DNA of 64,000 nucleotides, from assembly GCF_023715655.1 (NCBI RefSeq), contig NZ_JAMBON010000003.1:1-64000 (forward strand), read 5' to 3'. This stretch comes from Oceanobacillus luteolus (GTDB taxonomy: Bacteria; Bacillota; Bacilli; Bacillales; Amphibacillaceae). Of this stretch, positions 20,289 to 25,228 are shown in pieces. Positions within the stretch are counted from its first letter, which is position 1. The number at the start of each line of letters is the position of its first letter. The notes under the pieces were generated by a model that worked only from the letters and a program-made list of their open reading frames with translations, had not been told where the DNA came from and did not search any database. A program made the position numbers and the translations under genes.

Positions 20289-21407
20289 ATGAAAAAATTA
20301 CAGATACTATTTTTAAGTGCACTCCTATTGCTTGCTGGTTGTGCGCCATCAATAAATGATGATGAAGTCTTACAACATGAAGATGACTCAGAGGTAGAAA
20401 CATCGATTGTACCGGGAAATCGCTTAGGAGAAAGTAATTATCGGATGATTCTTCCTTATCGCACAAGCGAGGCGCGTGGAGTTATCACTCGACAGGTTGC
20501 AAATCGTGTGGATATCGACGAAATGGAAGAAGGGTTAAGAAGGCATTCACTTGATGTTTTCAATCCGGAAAAATATTTCTTCCAAGAAGGAAGATATTTA
20601 ACAGAATCAACAATTATTAATTTAATCGAAGAACTTAACCCAGGGACGCGTGATGAAAGAAGGAGTTGGGACCGTGAAAAACATGAGAACAATCCACGGA
20701 TCTTCTCCCATATCTTAGAGCAGAACTATCTTCTTCCTGGCGAAGGCAATTCGGTCCATGTTGCAGGCATTTCGATTGGAATTGCCTTGAAGTCAGTGTA
20801 TCGCTATCAGGTTGAGGTTGGAGGACCGTCCTTCAATTACGATATTTCCATGAATGAAATGTTGGCTAAAGGATATGAAGTTGCTGATACTATAGTACAA
20901 GAATTAAGGGAAATGGAAGATGTGCCTGATGTACCAATTATGGTCGCACTCTATCGTGAAGAATCGCAGTCTTCACCAGTACCAGGAAATTACGTTACAA
21001 GGACGATTGTTCCGAGTGGCAGCAGTTCCATTGATGGTTGGGAAGATATTGATGAGGAATATATTTTATTTCCATCGAAAGAAGCGGAAGATAAGTATTT
21101 AACTGACTTCGAAAACTTTAATCGATTTGGAAATGAAATTGCGAAGTTCTTCCCTAACTATGTTGGAGCAATTGGTGAAGGATTTTATGTGAATGGTGAA
21201 TTAAAAAGATTAACGATAGAAGTACCTATTCAGTTCTATGGAAAAGCAGAGGTAATTGGATTCACCCAGCATGTGTATGAAAAAATTGGGGAAATTTTCC
21301 AAAATCATTATGATCTCGAAATAAATGTCACATCTAGTGATAAAGTAGAAAGTCTCGTTTACCGTAAGGCTGGGGAGGAACAACCAGACGTTCATATATA
21401 CCATTAA
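20289..21407 (+). CDS. CamS family sex-pheromone-precursor lipoprotein (YerH)
   Basis: This 372-aa lipoprotein has the lipobox LLAGC (Cys18). The CamS family covers lipoproteins whose signal peptides are the source of the cAM373-type pheromone in enterococci and staphylococci; the lipoprotein body itself has no settled function. Blocks such as GVITRQVANRVD and LYREESQSSPVPGNYV are conserved in YerH. It ends the pcrB-pcrA-ligA-yerH run, as in B. subtilis, and a strong terminator follows. Confidence 0.9.
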   Translation: MKKLQILFLSALLLLAGCAPSINDDEVLQHEDDSEVETSIVPGNRLGESNYRMILPYRTSEARGVITRQVANRVDIDEMEEGLRRHSLDVFNPEKYFFQEGRYLTESTIINLIEELNPGTRDERRSWDREKHENNPRIFSHILEQNYLLPGEGNSVHVAGISIGIALKSVYRYQVEVGGPSFNYDISMNEMLAKGYEVADTIVQELREMEDVPDVPIMVALYREESQSSPVPGNYVTRTIVPSGSSSIDGWEDIDEEYILFPSKEAEDKYLTDFENFNRFGNEIAKFFPNYVGAIGEGFYVNGELKRLTIEVPIQFYGKAEVIGFTQHVYEKIGEIFQNHYDLEINVTSSDKVESLVYRKAGEEQPDVHIYH

Positions 21408-21588: not shown

Positions 21589-23136
21589 ATGGTAGTACCT
21601 TACACACATGAACCATTCACAGATTTTTCTGTAGAAGAGAACCGAAAGAAAATGGAGGAAGCTTTGAAAAATATCGAAGCTGAATTCGGTAAAGAATATC
21701 CACTAGTTATAGGTGGCGAAAGAATAACGACCGAAGATAAAATCAAAGTTGTAAACCCTTCTAATAAAACGGAGATCCTAGGGTATGTATCTAAATCAAA
21801 TAAAGACCTTGCTGAAAAGGCTATACAAGTTGCTGATGAGACGTTTAATACTTGGAGAAAAACAGATCCAAAATTCCGTGCTGGTGTATTATTCCGTGCA
21901 GCAGCAATTATCCGCCGACGTAAGTTCGAGTTTAATGCCCATCTCGTTAAAGAAGGTGGTAAACCTTGGAAAGAAGCGGATGCGGATACTGCAGAAGCAA
22001 TCGATTTCCTAGAATACTATGGCCGACAAATGTTGAAGATTAAAGATGGTGTGGAAGTAAACAGTCGACCAATTGAACATAATCAATTCCATTACATTCC
22101 ACTAGGTGTTGGATTAGTTATTTCACCTTGGAATTTCTTGTTTGCGATAATGGCAGGTACAACAGTTGCGTCTATGGTGACTGGAAATACCGTTTTACTT
22201 AAACCGGCAAGTACTACACCAATTATTGCGTATAAGTTTATTGAGGTTCTAGAAGAAGCTGGTATGCCTAAAGGGGTGGTCAACTACATTCCAGGTCCAG
22301 GAAGTGAAGTTGGCGACTATCTCGTTGAACATCCACGTACCCGCTTTATCAGCTTTACGGGCTCCCGTGAGGTAGGTACTAGAATTTTTGAAAAAGCGGC
22401 GGTCATCCAAGAAGGACAAAAGTGGCTTAAACGTACCATCCTTGAAATGGGTGGAAAAGATACCATCGTAGTGGACAATGAAGCAGACCTTGAATTAGCT
22501 GCGCAATCCATCGTTCAATCTGCTTTTGGCTTTTCCGGACAAAAATGTTCAGCATGTTCACGAGCAGTTATTCATGAAGATGTCTACGATCAAGTGAAAG
22601 ACCGTGTAGTGGAGCTGACAAATGAGTTGACCGTTGGAGATCCTGCTGACCAAAATCATTTTATGGGACCGGTAATTGACCAAGCAGCTTATGATAAAAT
22701 CTTGAAGTATATTGAAATTGGGAAAGAAGAAGGAGAGCTTCTAACTGGTGGGGAAGGAGACGACAGTAAAGGCTGGTTCTTGAAACCAACTGTATTTGCT
22801 GATGTCGATCCTCAGGCACGTATTATGCAAGAAGAAATCTTTGGTCCAGTAGTTGCACTGACAAAAGCGAAGGATTTCGATGAAGCAATTGAAATTGCTA
22901 ATAACACAGAATACGGGTTGACTGGTGCAGTAATTACGAATAATCGTGAGCATCTGGAACAGGCTCGTGAAGATTTCCATGTTGGAAACCTTTACTTTAA
23001 CCGTGGCTGTACTGCAGCTATCGTCGGTTACCAGCCGTTTGGCGGCTTTAATATGTCAGGTACTGACTCTAAAGCTGGTGGACCTGATTACCTCATCCAG
23101 CATATGCAAGGAAAAACTACTTCGGAAATGCTTTAA
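21589..23136 (+). CDS. rocA: L-glutamate gamma-semialdehyde (1-pyrroline-5-carboxylate) dehydrogenase
   Basis: This aldehyde dehydrogenase oxidises glutamate semialdehyde to glutamate in arginine and proline breakdown. At 515 aa it matches the RocA/PutC size. The general-base Glu286 (TILEMGGKD) and catalytic Cys320 ([10 protein letters not shown]) are in the expected positions; SFTGSREVG is the NAD-binding loop. AGGAGG precedes the ATG. It is monocistronic, with its own promoter and terminator. Confidence 0.94.
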
Positions 23137-23204: not shown

Positions 23205-23356
23205 TTGTGAGAGGAAAATTCGAAACATTTAACCCCGATAATCGACCTTAAAAGACATGATTTTCCCAATATGAATTTTTTGAAATTATGCTATACTAGA
23301 AATATAGCAAATATAGACGAGAATAGTATTACAGTAGAGATTGCAGGGTGACTTTG

Positions 23357-24625
23357 ATGATTGAAATCGGCTCATTCATAAAGATGCAGCGTACAAAACA
23401 GAAAATGACTTTGGGTGAGCTTGCGGAGGGAATTGTATCCGTTTCTTATTTATCAAAAATCGAGAATCTGAAAACAGAAGCAAGCCCACACATCATTCAA
23501 CTCTTATGTAATCGGCTTGGGATTGAACTTGATCGCAACATGGATGATGTCATCGAGGAAAAATGTGAAAAATGGTTTGTCATGCTTCTAGATAAGCAAG
23601 ACGGAAATGAAATCAAAGAATTATACAATGAATTACAGGAATTATTAGATAGTAATTTATCTGATCGTGTACTATTATTCGAGATTCATAAAATCAGATA
23701 TTTCCTATATCTCGACGAAGAAAAATTAGCATTGGACCAAATCAATAAATTGAATAAAATGGCTAGTTCCTTCGATACGAGAGAACTCTATTACTGGTTT
23801 AAATTCCGTGGAAACTATAATTCTCAAGTTGGAGAAGATACTACCGCGATTGAAAGATACAAAAAAGCAGAAGAATTATCACGTAATCTGGATATACCCG
23901 AAGATGAAATTGCAGATTTGCAGTATACTATGTCGATAGCATACAGCCAAGTCAGAAATACGCTTGAAGCTATTGCTTATGCGAATTATTCTTTGGATAT
24001 CTATATGAAAAAATATAATTTCCTCCACTGTGCTAAATGTCATATTGTACTTGGAATATCATATCGCCGGCTTAAAATGTATGATAAAGCGATTGAAAAT
24101 TATAATCTCGCAAAACATCTTGCCGGATTGAATAGCAACCAAGAACTTATTCAGCTAACTAACCAAAACCTTGGTTACCTATATGCCACATTAGGAAAAA
24201 ATAAAGAAGCAATCAAATTTTATTTGGAAATCGTAGAGGATAAAAATGTAAATAAACAGGTTAAAGTTGGTGCAATAACCGATTTAGTCAAAGTTTACTA
24301 TGTTACAGAGGAATTTACGAAAGCCAAAGAAATGATTGATGAAGCGTTAAAATTATTAGATCAAATTCCACAGAATAACGCTTATGATTTTTATTACCAT
24401 GTCATACATACCTATTATTATTCCATCACGAATCAGGCAAATAAATTTGTGACTCTTGTGAAAAATAAATTTATTCCTTTACTAATAAAACGTAAAGACC
24501 ATGCGAATACGGTGATTTTCGCATCTATGCTTGCCAAACATTACGAAGGCATCCATAAGTATAAGGATGCAACTAAATATTATAAACTCGCTAATAGTTC
24601 ATATAGAGAGTTATCAAACCTTTAA
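23357..24625 (+). CDS. RRNPP-type HTH/TPR transcriptional regulator
   Basis: An XRE-type helix-turn-helix occupies about residues 3-60 (IGSFIKMQRTKQKMTLGELA). It is followed by a long alpha-helical array with TPR-like units (for example AIERYKKAEELSR, AIENYNLAKHLAG, EAIKFYLEIVED) to the end at 422 aa. This is the layout of peptide-sensing RRNPP regulators such as PlcR and NprR. The ATG at 23357 is preferred over GTG 23348 because AGGGTG sits six bases before it. A small secreted-peptide gene starts 15 bases after the stop. A TATACT -10 candidate is at 23292-23297. The peptide-sensing role is inferred from architecture and neighbour. Confidence 0.85.
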   Translation: MIEIGSFIKMQRTKQKMTLGELAEGIVSVSYLSKIENLKTEASPHIIQLLCNRLGIELDRNMDDVIEEKCEKWFVMLLDKQDGNEIKELYNELQELLDSNLSDRVLLFEIHKIRYFLYLDEEKLALDQINKLNKMASSFDTRELYYWFKFRGNYNSQVGEDTTAIERYKKAEELSRNLDIPEDEIADLQYTMSIAYSQVRNTLEAIAYANYSLDIYMKKYNFLHCAKCHIVLGISYRRLKMYDKAIENYNLAKHLAGLNSNQELIQLTNQNLGYLYATLGKNKEAIKFYLEIVEDKNVNKQVKVGAITDLVKVYYVTEEFTKAKEMIDEALKLLDQIPQNNAYDFYYHVIHTYYYSITNQANKFVTLVKNKFIPLLIKRKDHANTVIFASMLAKHYEGIHKYKDATKYYKLANSSYRELSNL

Positions 24626-24639
24626 AGGAGGGATGAAAA

Positions 24640-24789
24640 ATGAAAAAACTATTTGCTGGTATTACCTTAGCTGCAGTAATCGTTTCAGGAGTATTTTTCG
24701 CAGTCAACTCAGATCCAATTGAGACAACTTGGGGTGAAAGACACCCACCTATTGTAAAATCACCATGGAACCTTGATTCTGATTATTAA
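24640..24789 (+). CDS. Small secreted propeptide, candidate RRNPP signalling peptide
   Basis: A 49-codon gene with AAGGAGGG seven to nine bases before the ATG, 15 bases behind the HTH/TPR regulator. The N-terminus (MKKLFAGITLAAVIVSGVFF) is a signal-peptide-like segment; the remaining 25 or so residues are polar and include WGERHPPIV. Size, topology and position match the pro-peptide genes that pair with PlcR, NprR and Rap-type receptors. Similarity of HPPIV to the NprX peptide (SKPDIVG) is suggestive only. A terminator follows about 30 bases later. Confidence 0.75.
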   Translation: MKKLFAGITLAAVIVSGVFFAVNSDPIETTWGERHPPIVKSPWNLDSDY

Positions 24790-24821: not shown

Positions 24822-24858
24822 TTCCTGGAGTAGACCATCTGCTTCAGGATTTTTTTTA
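24822..24858 (+). terminator. Terminator after the regulator/peptide pair
   Basis: TCCTGGAG pairs with CTTCAGGA (one G-T pair) and is followed by eight T residues. Confidence 0.8.
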
Positions 24859-24916
24859 TGAATGATTAAAAATCTTGATATTTGTATAGGCTTTTATATC
24901 TAGATGGTATATTCTG

Positions 24917-25228
24917 CTTTTGGCTGACGTCTAGCTTCAGCGACCAGGGGCTGCCTGAACTTCCTGCGCTTTCAGTCGATAAGTCAACATCGGCTCGTTC
25001 CTCACCGTGTTTCCTTTATCTCCCTGCACCGCAGTTTAGTTCGGAAGCCCCTAAACGGTCGCTTTCGCTTTTGGTTGATGTCTAGCTTCAGCGACCAGGG
25101 GCTGCCCGAACTTCCTGCGGTTTCAGTCGATAAGTCAACATCGGCTCGTTCCTCGCCGTGTTTCCTTTATCTCCCTGCACCGCAGTTCAGTTCGGAAGCC
25201 CCTAAACGGTCGCTTCCGCTTTTGGTTG
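24917..25228. repeat. Two tandem copies of a 151-bp palindromic intergenic element
   Basis: The motif GTCTAGCTTCAGCGACCAGG recurs with a period of 151 bp (CTAGC at 24931 and 25082), and the two copies differ at only a few positions. Each copy is itself a long imperfect palindrome: AGCGACC-AGGGGCT near its left end pairs with AGCCCCT-AAAC-GGTCGCT near its right end, with inner CTGCGG/CCGCAG pairing in copy 2. It resembles the family of dispersed GTCTAGC-type intergenic elements of Bacillaceae. Frames through it are not genes. Confidence 0.85.

Follow-up and report, generated by a model that had tools for sequence, protein, structure and literature searches.

A candidate chromosomal quorum-sensing pair of the NprR-like kind in Oceanobacillus luteolus

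The NprR-NprX system of the Bacillus cereus group, a member of RRNPP clan B, combines an HTH and TPR domain receptor with a propeptide whose gene adjoins the receptor gene, as described in PMC10075063, while the NprX peptide is given as SSKPDIVG (PMC4970707). Among other systems, the Raps of Bacillus are described as lacking a DNA-binding domain (PMC10075063) and PlcR as a five-TPR receptor of clan A (PMC12700828). Propeptides with multiple copies of the pheromone have already been described for NprR and other subfamilies (PMC9765709, PMC11343458, PMC5199041), whereby, among NprR propeptides, all 17 that are atypically large are reported as multi-copy with up to six copies (PMC9765709). With respect to distribution, Virgibacillus is listed with AimR and NprR genes (PMC9765709) and RRNPP_detector reports two plasmid NprR-NprX systems in Priestia koreensis FS-1 (PMC10075063), while our literature search retrieved no paper combining 'RRNPP' or 'NprR' with 'Oceanobacillus'.

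A gene pair of comparable layout is located in the window, the 64,000-nucleotide stretch of O. luteolus contig NZ_JAMBON010000003.1 that was analysed (Table 1). A sequence-only reading had described a 422-aa HTH/TPR regulator and, next to it, a 49-codon ORF that has a strong ribosome-binding site and a signal-like start, with a terminator after the pair. Direct reading of the ORFs and Pfam (HTH_3 1.1e-10, TPR_12 1.3e-12) agree with the first part, with MKKLFAGITLAAVIVSGVFFAVNSDPIETTWGERHPPIVKSPWNLDSDY as the 49-aa peptide and TAAAGGAGGG as its upstream ribosome-binding site, while the intergenic gap, put at 15 bases, is actually 14 nt by direct ORF reading. The Shine-Dalgarno sequence AGGGTG at ~23345 fits the ATG of the regulator, with an alternative in-frame GTG start possible at 23348. 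A terminator-like hairpin with a T-run indeed follows the pair; as one hairpin was found versus 1.3 expected in shuffles of the region, its position, not its existence, is the evidence. The flanking genes, which we take to be rocA and gatC following the earlier reading, distinguish the locus from NprR-NprX; one or the other adjoins the regulator in 81 of 104 orthologs, counted over flanks of varying length. The closest regulators from named species are those of O. alkalisoli (76% identical) and O. indicireducens (74%). In the same neighbourhood, CamS, the sex-pheromone cAM373 precursor lipoprotein, is encoded at 20289-21407, two genes upstream of the regulator, and a direct repeat of 151 nt (24900-25201), whose two copies are 91% identical, fills most of the gap between terminator and gatC.

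Table 1. Coordinates of the two-gene unit, its putative control elements and its neighbours in the window
Feature	Position	Strand	Remarks
rocA	21589-23136		upstream of regulator
Upstream half-site pair TTTTCTTGTGAGAGGAAAA	23200-23218	+	inverted TTTTC..GGAAAA; part of putative autoregulatory operator
Operator box ATTTTCCCAATATGAA (putative)	23260-23275	+	overlaps -35 position
Extended -10 TGC-TATACT	23289-23297	+	without consensus -35; -10 itself 23292-23297
Regulator ORF	23357-24625	+	422 aa; HTH_3 residues 8-59 plus TPR domain; NprR-like RRNPP receptor
Propeptide ORF	24640-24789	+	49 aa; predicted secreted; predicted pheromone core (WG)ERHPPIV(K)
Codons of predicted pheromone core GERHPPIV	24733-24756	+	
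Terminator-like hairpin of two-gene unit	24823-24849	+	hairpin plus T-run
gatC	25330		downstream of two-gene unit

With a probability of about 0.8, we consider the locus to encode an NprR-like RRNPP quorum-sensing pair on the chromosome. Computation shows the gene pair itself, its conservation, coding selection on the peptide, the register of the core, co-variation of receptor and peptide, and a conserved box in the own promoter. The steps that we infer, from secretion, processing and import to binding, multimerisation and the sign of regulation, would be the following. The 49-aa propeptide would be exported by the Sec route and cut by extracellular proteases on both sides of the ERHPPIV core, which would be re-imported by an oligopeptide permease; 13 matches to the oligopeptide-binding family SBP_bac_5 over the cut-off in the genome indicate that candidate import proteins exist. 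Inside the cell the core would bind in the concave groove of the TPR domain and, by analogy to NprX with NprR, lock the TPR superhelix and favour a DNA-binding multimer. This multimer would bind TTTTCCC half-sites at its own promoter, where a box lies over the -35 position of a promoter with an extended -10 only, and would probably activate its own operon in a positive feedback, together with further putative targets.

The small ORF was assessed in 104 orthologs of the regulator with >40% identity, a fetched subset of all matches from which L032 was left out as a duplicate of L003; regulator matches as such occur in 26 of 28 genus genomes and in 125 of 159 genomes in the family search. The detector required a secretion-signal-like ORF, scored by hydrophobicity and a basic N-terminus, together with a ribosome-binding site between -45 and +60 nt from the regulator stop. 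By this one detector a peptide ORF is present at the same place in 94 of the 104 orthologs and missing in 10, versus 11 positives among 1,880 shuffled downstream regions, which argues that the ORF is not there by chance. At the other ORF ends in the window the same detector scored 4 of 70 positive, one of which is CamS. The start of the peptide ORF lies 11-29 nt past the regulator stop in 93 of 94 cases. Across 18 close pairs, some of which have a member in common and one of which is identical, pooled pS is 0.430 and pN 0.097, and third codon positions account for 265 of 439 substitutions; with pS at 0.43 versus pN at 0.10 the ORF evolves as a protein. Sequence comparison thus shows that the small ORF is retained next to the regulator and is subject to purifying selection. 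A second copy of the peptide was not found in its own genome at E up to 10, and all matches of the peptide to Phr, AimP and PhrK models stay below the cut-off, the best being the Phr N-terminal model, while AimP reaches 15.5 of 35 bits. The candidate assignment as RRNPP receptor with secreted propeptide, proposed from the sequence alone, remains the best reading, with NprR and Rap as nearest structures and a conserved ORF under purifying selection.

Concerning the receptor, a sequence search of solved structures places NprR (4gpk) first, with 9.3e-16 for the regulator alone and 2e-27 for a profile of 49 orthologs, and Rap, which shares the TPR fold, next. The AlphaFold (AF2) model of the regulator is of low confidence (pLDDT 61). 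Searched with Foldseek, this weak model retrieves apo NprR on top by E-value and NprR and Rap chains in the first 27 places, with TM-scores by query length of just 0.30-0.38 for NprR and Rap and higher ones for other TPR proteins further down, up to 0.49 for LGN. Among solved structures, NprR is by sequence the nearest characterised relative. In the TPR domain 68 of 346 aligned residues (20%) are identical to NprR. Residues Y223 and F225 of the NprR tetramer correspond to Y220 and F222, identical in 94 of 94 orthologs, while in the sequence alignment the NprR contacts R126, W167, H201, N306 and D309 correspond to D120, D161, Q198, V302 and G305 in the window. As these five contact residues and two of four Spo0F-contact residues are not kept, and as NprR and Rap60 form long branches that meet on the tree, so that NprR is not reliably separable from Rap, the regulator is by its sequence NprR-like with a different pocket and not NprR proper.

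The sequence-only reading had compared the layout to PlcR-PapR and NprR-NprX alike. The resemblance to NprR-NprX holds, while PlcR-PapR was rejected: the weak model shows 18 helices after the HTH, approximately nine pairs versus five TPRs, and the solved-structure sequence searches, which listed 16 and 48 chains, include no PlcR among these. The phage-encoded arbitrium system AimR-AimP was equally set aside, with the AimP model below its cut-off and, at E 1e-5, no match of the regulator to any of 50,697 phage records; viral contigs yielded 207 candidate stretches, of which none was confirmed. The PHROG profile phrog_5208 (function not known) matches the TPR part at 7.7e-25, which indicates that remote phage relatives exist. 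A genome search with ComR_TPR (PF18710) gave no match, and as the control genomes gave none either it is uninformative. An NprR-like pair on a plasmid of P. koreensis FS-1, outside the ortholog group used here, is 32% identical over 98% of the query, possesses an EKEPGPL-core peptide and joins the present family on the tree (95/94). It is presumably one of the two FS-1 systems reported in PMC10075063, and the family may therefore already lie in the NprR cluster of the RRNPP_detector study.

The relationship to NprR raises the alternative of a bifunctional regulator, the apo form of which would also bind Spo0F and delay sporulation until the peptide turns it into a transcription factor. In NprR, alanine at any of D107, Y118, E188 and Y223 abolished the effect on sporulation (PMC4970707). 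Besides NprR being the nearest characterised relative by sequence, two of these four positions are kept, namely E188 (E182 in the window; E in 69 and D in 20 of 94) and Y223 (Y220; 94 of 94). The conservation of Y223 does not speak for Spo0F, though, because this residue is also needed for the tetramer, and D107 is S, N or T in 92 of 94 orthologs (S102 in the window) and Y118 is K, Q or R in 92 of 94 (K112), so that bifunctionality appears distinctly unlikely.

Returning to the reading as a peptide-responsive quorum-sensing regulator, the predicted pheromone has a recognizable core. The pattern P-x-[IV]-[FLVYIS] occurs in 81 of 94 peptides and aligns with HPPIV of the window and KPDIV of NprX, and most orthologs have the conserved core [E/H]-P-x-[I/V]-[F/L]; locus and NprR-NprX thus have the core type [K/E/H]-P-x-[I/V]-[V/F/L] in common. 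In the window a tail of 10 residues follows the core, a difference to NprR-NprX, and the sequence past the core varies among orthologs, which suggests that the mature peptide is probably internal in the propeptide and cleaved on both sides. The conserved core therefore lies where the sequence-only reading had pointed with GERHPPIV, but is internal and not C-terminal.

The core stretch, present as a single copy in the window, is tandemly repeated in 13 orthologs, for example as KDAEPSIFSFELS or EVAMDKHPGVLSSKG units; the script counted 16, of which L039, L041 and L063 were removed by eye as their second match lies in the tail. Multi-copy propeptides are common to this family and the known tandem RRNPPA propeptides, with up to 10 core copies here (L010). 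The propeptides of L010 and L014 comprise 184 and 302 aa, that of L014 being partly N in the assembly, and L105 and L109 have variant tandem units lacking I/V (EPKPTA, LQPGAF). Several related arrangements were encountered. In one genus (genomes G138-G142 and G145; L087, L089, L090, L092-L101 and L105) most genomes harbour several copies of the system and 11 of 15 pairs lack the P-x-[IV]-[FL] core, with for example LQPNPTLNP or RPPSPTFTM in its place, a multi-copy divergence of the pair. L028 has a paralogous propeptide with two VNDEHPD units. On a Mesobacillus foraminis plasmid (L218, 2766-3179) an NprR-like regulator has as its neighbour a tandem EELPPPLAP/EEFPPPLAP propeptide that is annotated as 'hypothetical protein'. 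L002 (G000:C124:36091-37314) is a second receptor-peptide pair in the same genome as the window pair, with a regulator 35% identical, a peptide ending in EEHPKGN, and GGAAAATTTTCC and TTGGGAAAA upstream.

In NprR the peptide lysine stacks on H201 and W167 (PMC4970707), which by sequence alignment correspond to receptor columns 198 and 161. Co-variation was scored in 80 canonical-core pairs, with 14 of 94 left out and with the first core only in tandem peptides. All 63 receptors paired with an E-P peptide have K198, as do 7 of the 17 remaining ones. When columns are ranked by independent tree pairs for co-variation with the residue before the proline, column 198 is second and column 161 sixth of 216. 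The tree sign test with its 8 independent contrasts, approximately 4.9 in the same direction, 0 opposite and 3.1 with no difference, is borderline (median p 0.0625), while the uncorrected Fisher p of 1e-8 is inflated by kinship among the orthologs. Column 176, which was not predicted, ranks first with a stronger co-variation than 198, and the other tabulated NprR contact positions 120, 159, 302 and 305 are not among the eight top columns. With a looser definition of the core (89 rows, five peptides, L087_1, L093, L095, L097 and L100, having no core) column 198 is third of 201 and column 161 is outside the top 12. The window pair itself combines Q198 with His before the proline, while its two nearest relatives combine K198 with the same His.

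These observations bear on whether the peptide is an exported effector, such as a small antimicrobial or wall-active peptide, merely controlled by the regulator and not its signal. Binding of the peptide by the receptor is a prediction, and the peptide family matches lie below the cut-off; on the other hand, the core stretch is multiplied in tandem, the tail is variable, the core co-varies with the receptor groove and the pair resembles NprR-NprX, all of which is evidence against an effector and makes this explanation very improbable.

As a signal receptor the regulator is predicted to act at its own promoter. Of 104 ortholog promoters, 96 contain the box TTTCCCAA no more than 330 nt upstream of the regulator, versus 23 of 2,948 control windows; among 92 promoters measured, 82 have 22 nt and 8 have 23 nt between the end of the box and the extended -10. 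The extended -10, aTGtTATaAT, is conserved in the alignment of the upstream regions; a sigma-70 pattern scan, which requires a -35, did not pick this promoter. When 94 upstream regions are aligned, a TTTTCC..GGAAAA pair further upstream is conserved as well, and TTTTCCTn(4-7)AGGAAAA occurs at the own promoter in 9 of 26 genus genomes. With a conserved box whose spacing to an extended -10 is nearly constant in its own promoter, the regulator is probably autoregulated. The inverted repeat GCTATA..TATAGC over the -10 was dropped as candidate operator, because conservation in the alignment falls on another element. A letter of the operator (ATTTTCCC versus ACTTTCCC) agrees between the half-sites in 83 of 87 promoters, with V29 as the best-following HTH column, weak evidence as the tree provides 2 independent contrasts only. 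At L125/L212 (G000:C194:2872-2944), near a contig end, a promoter-like stretch GGAAAA...TTTTCCCAATATACAA...TATAAT is possibly a broken promoter copy.

The position of the box over the -35 is expected of an activator site and possible for a repressor, and the sign of the regulation could accordingly be the opposite, with the unliganded regulator covering the -35 region and repressing its own promoter until the peptide relieves it. A precedent for a peptide that switches its receptor off is AimP, which inactivates AimR. The location of the box suits a repressor as well as an activator, but the missing consensus -35, the conserved extended -10 and the near-fixed spacing rather resemble an activator-dependent promoter, and the two residues on which the transcriptional activity of NprR depends are present in 94 of 94 orthologs. 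We thus regard repression relieved by the peptide as somewhat unlikely, and activation as the probable sign.

Which promoters are controlled had been left open by the sequence-only reading. As judged from these upstream sequences, the own promoter is the sole target supported, as predicted autoregulation, while across 26 genus genomes no second regulon target was established with the 13-mer, the half-site pair or the inverted repeat. The operator 16-mer has a single exact occurrence in the genome; allowing up to 3 mismatches gives 134 sites versus 60 in the reversed control, an excess which suggests that further targets may exist. The exact 13-mer is present in 16 of 26 genus genomes, and the half-site pair with gap gives 101 versus 50 control matches, own promoters included. 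Some of the half-site-pair matches reappear in close relatives with almost identical sequence. The inverted-repeat form is about equally frequent genome-wide (36 versus 32 in the reversed control). Among candidate target loci inspected, 15 of 20 lie inside an ORF >300 nt, and in the half-site-pair search 14 of 21 non-own loci inspected are under an open frame of at least 450 nt.

Absence of the small ORF in relatives that carry the regulator had been named as an observation that would speak against the pair. The ten absences fall into L019-L025 (7) and L106/L108/L111 (3) and need two changes only on the tree, which argues for loss in two clades rather than general absence; by their sequences, two clades retain the regulator but no longer have the peptide. 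The branch of L019-L025 is long (0.97), and similarity to relatives is 65% in the HTH and 45% in the TPR part, versus 86% and 64% among the peptide-bearing sisters. All 7 keep TTTCCCAA upstream, and all except L022 have, by eye, a hairpin-like sequence within ~100 nt of the stop. In L106/L108/L111, on the other hand, TTTCCCAA is absent and the tetramer residue F222 is L.

Cumulatively, a broader picture can be drawn tentatively, to which we assign slightly less than an even chance: a largely vertical, widespread quorum-sensing system of Oceanobacillus/Virgibacillus-type Bacillaceae, with a specificity code readable from sequence (the residue before the core proline versus positions 198 and 161), a pheromone that was amplified in tandem several times, multiple diverged copies in one genus (g38) and a receptor that was twice independently converted to a pheromone-free regulator, which in one of the two cases would have kept chromosomal place and own-promoter box. 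The findings point to a widespread quorum-sensing circuit for which our literature search found no description in these bacteria. The 94 natural receptor-peptide pairs, 81 of them with a clear core, together with the ten receptors that have no peptide gene, form a ready test set that bears on peptide choice by TPR pheromone receptors and on how such receptors become signal-independent.
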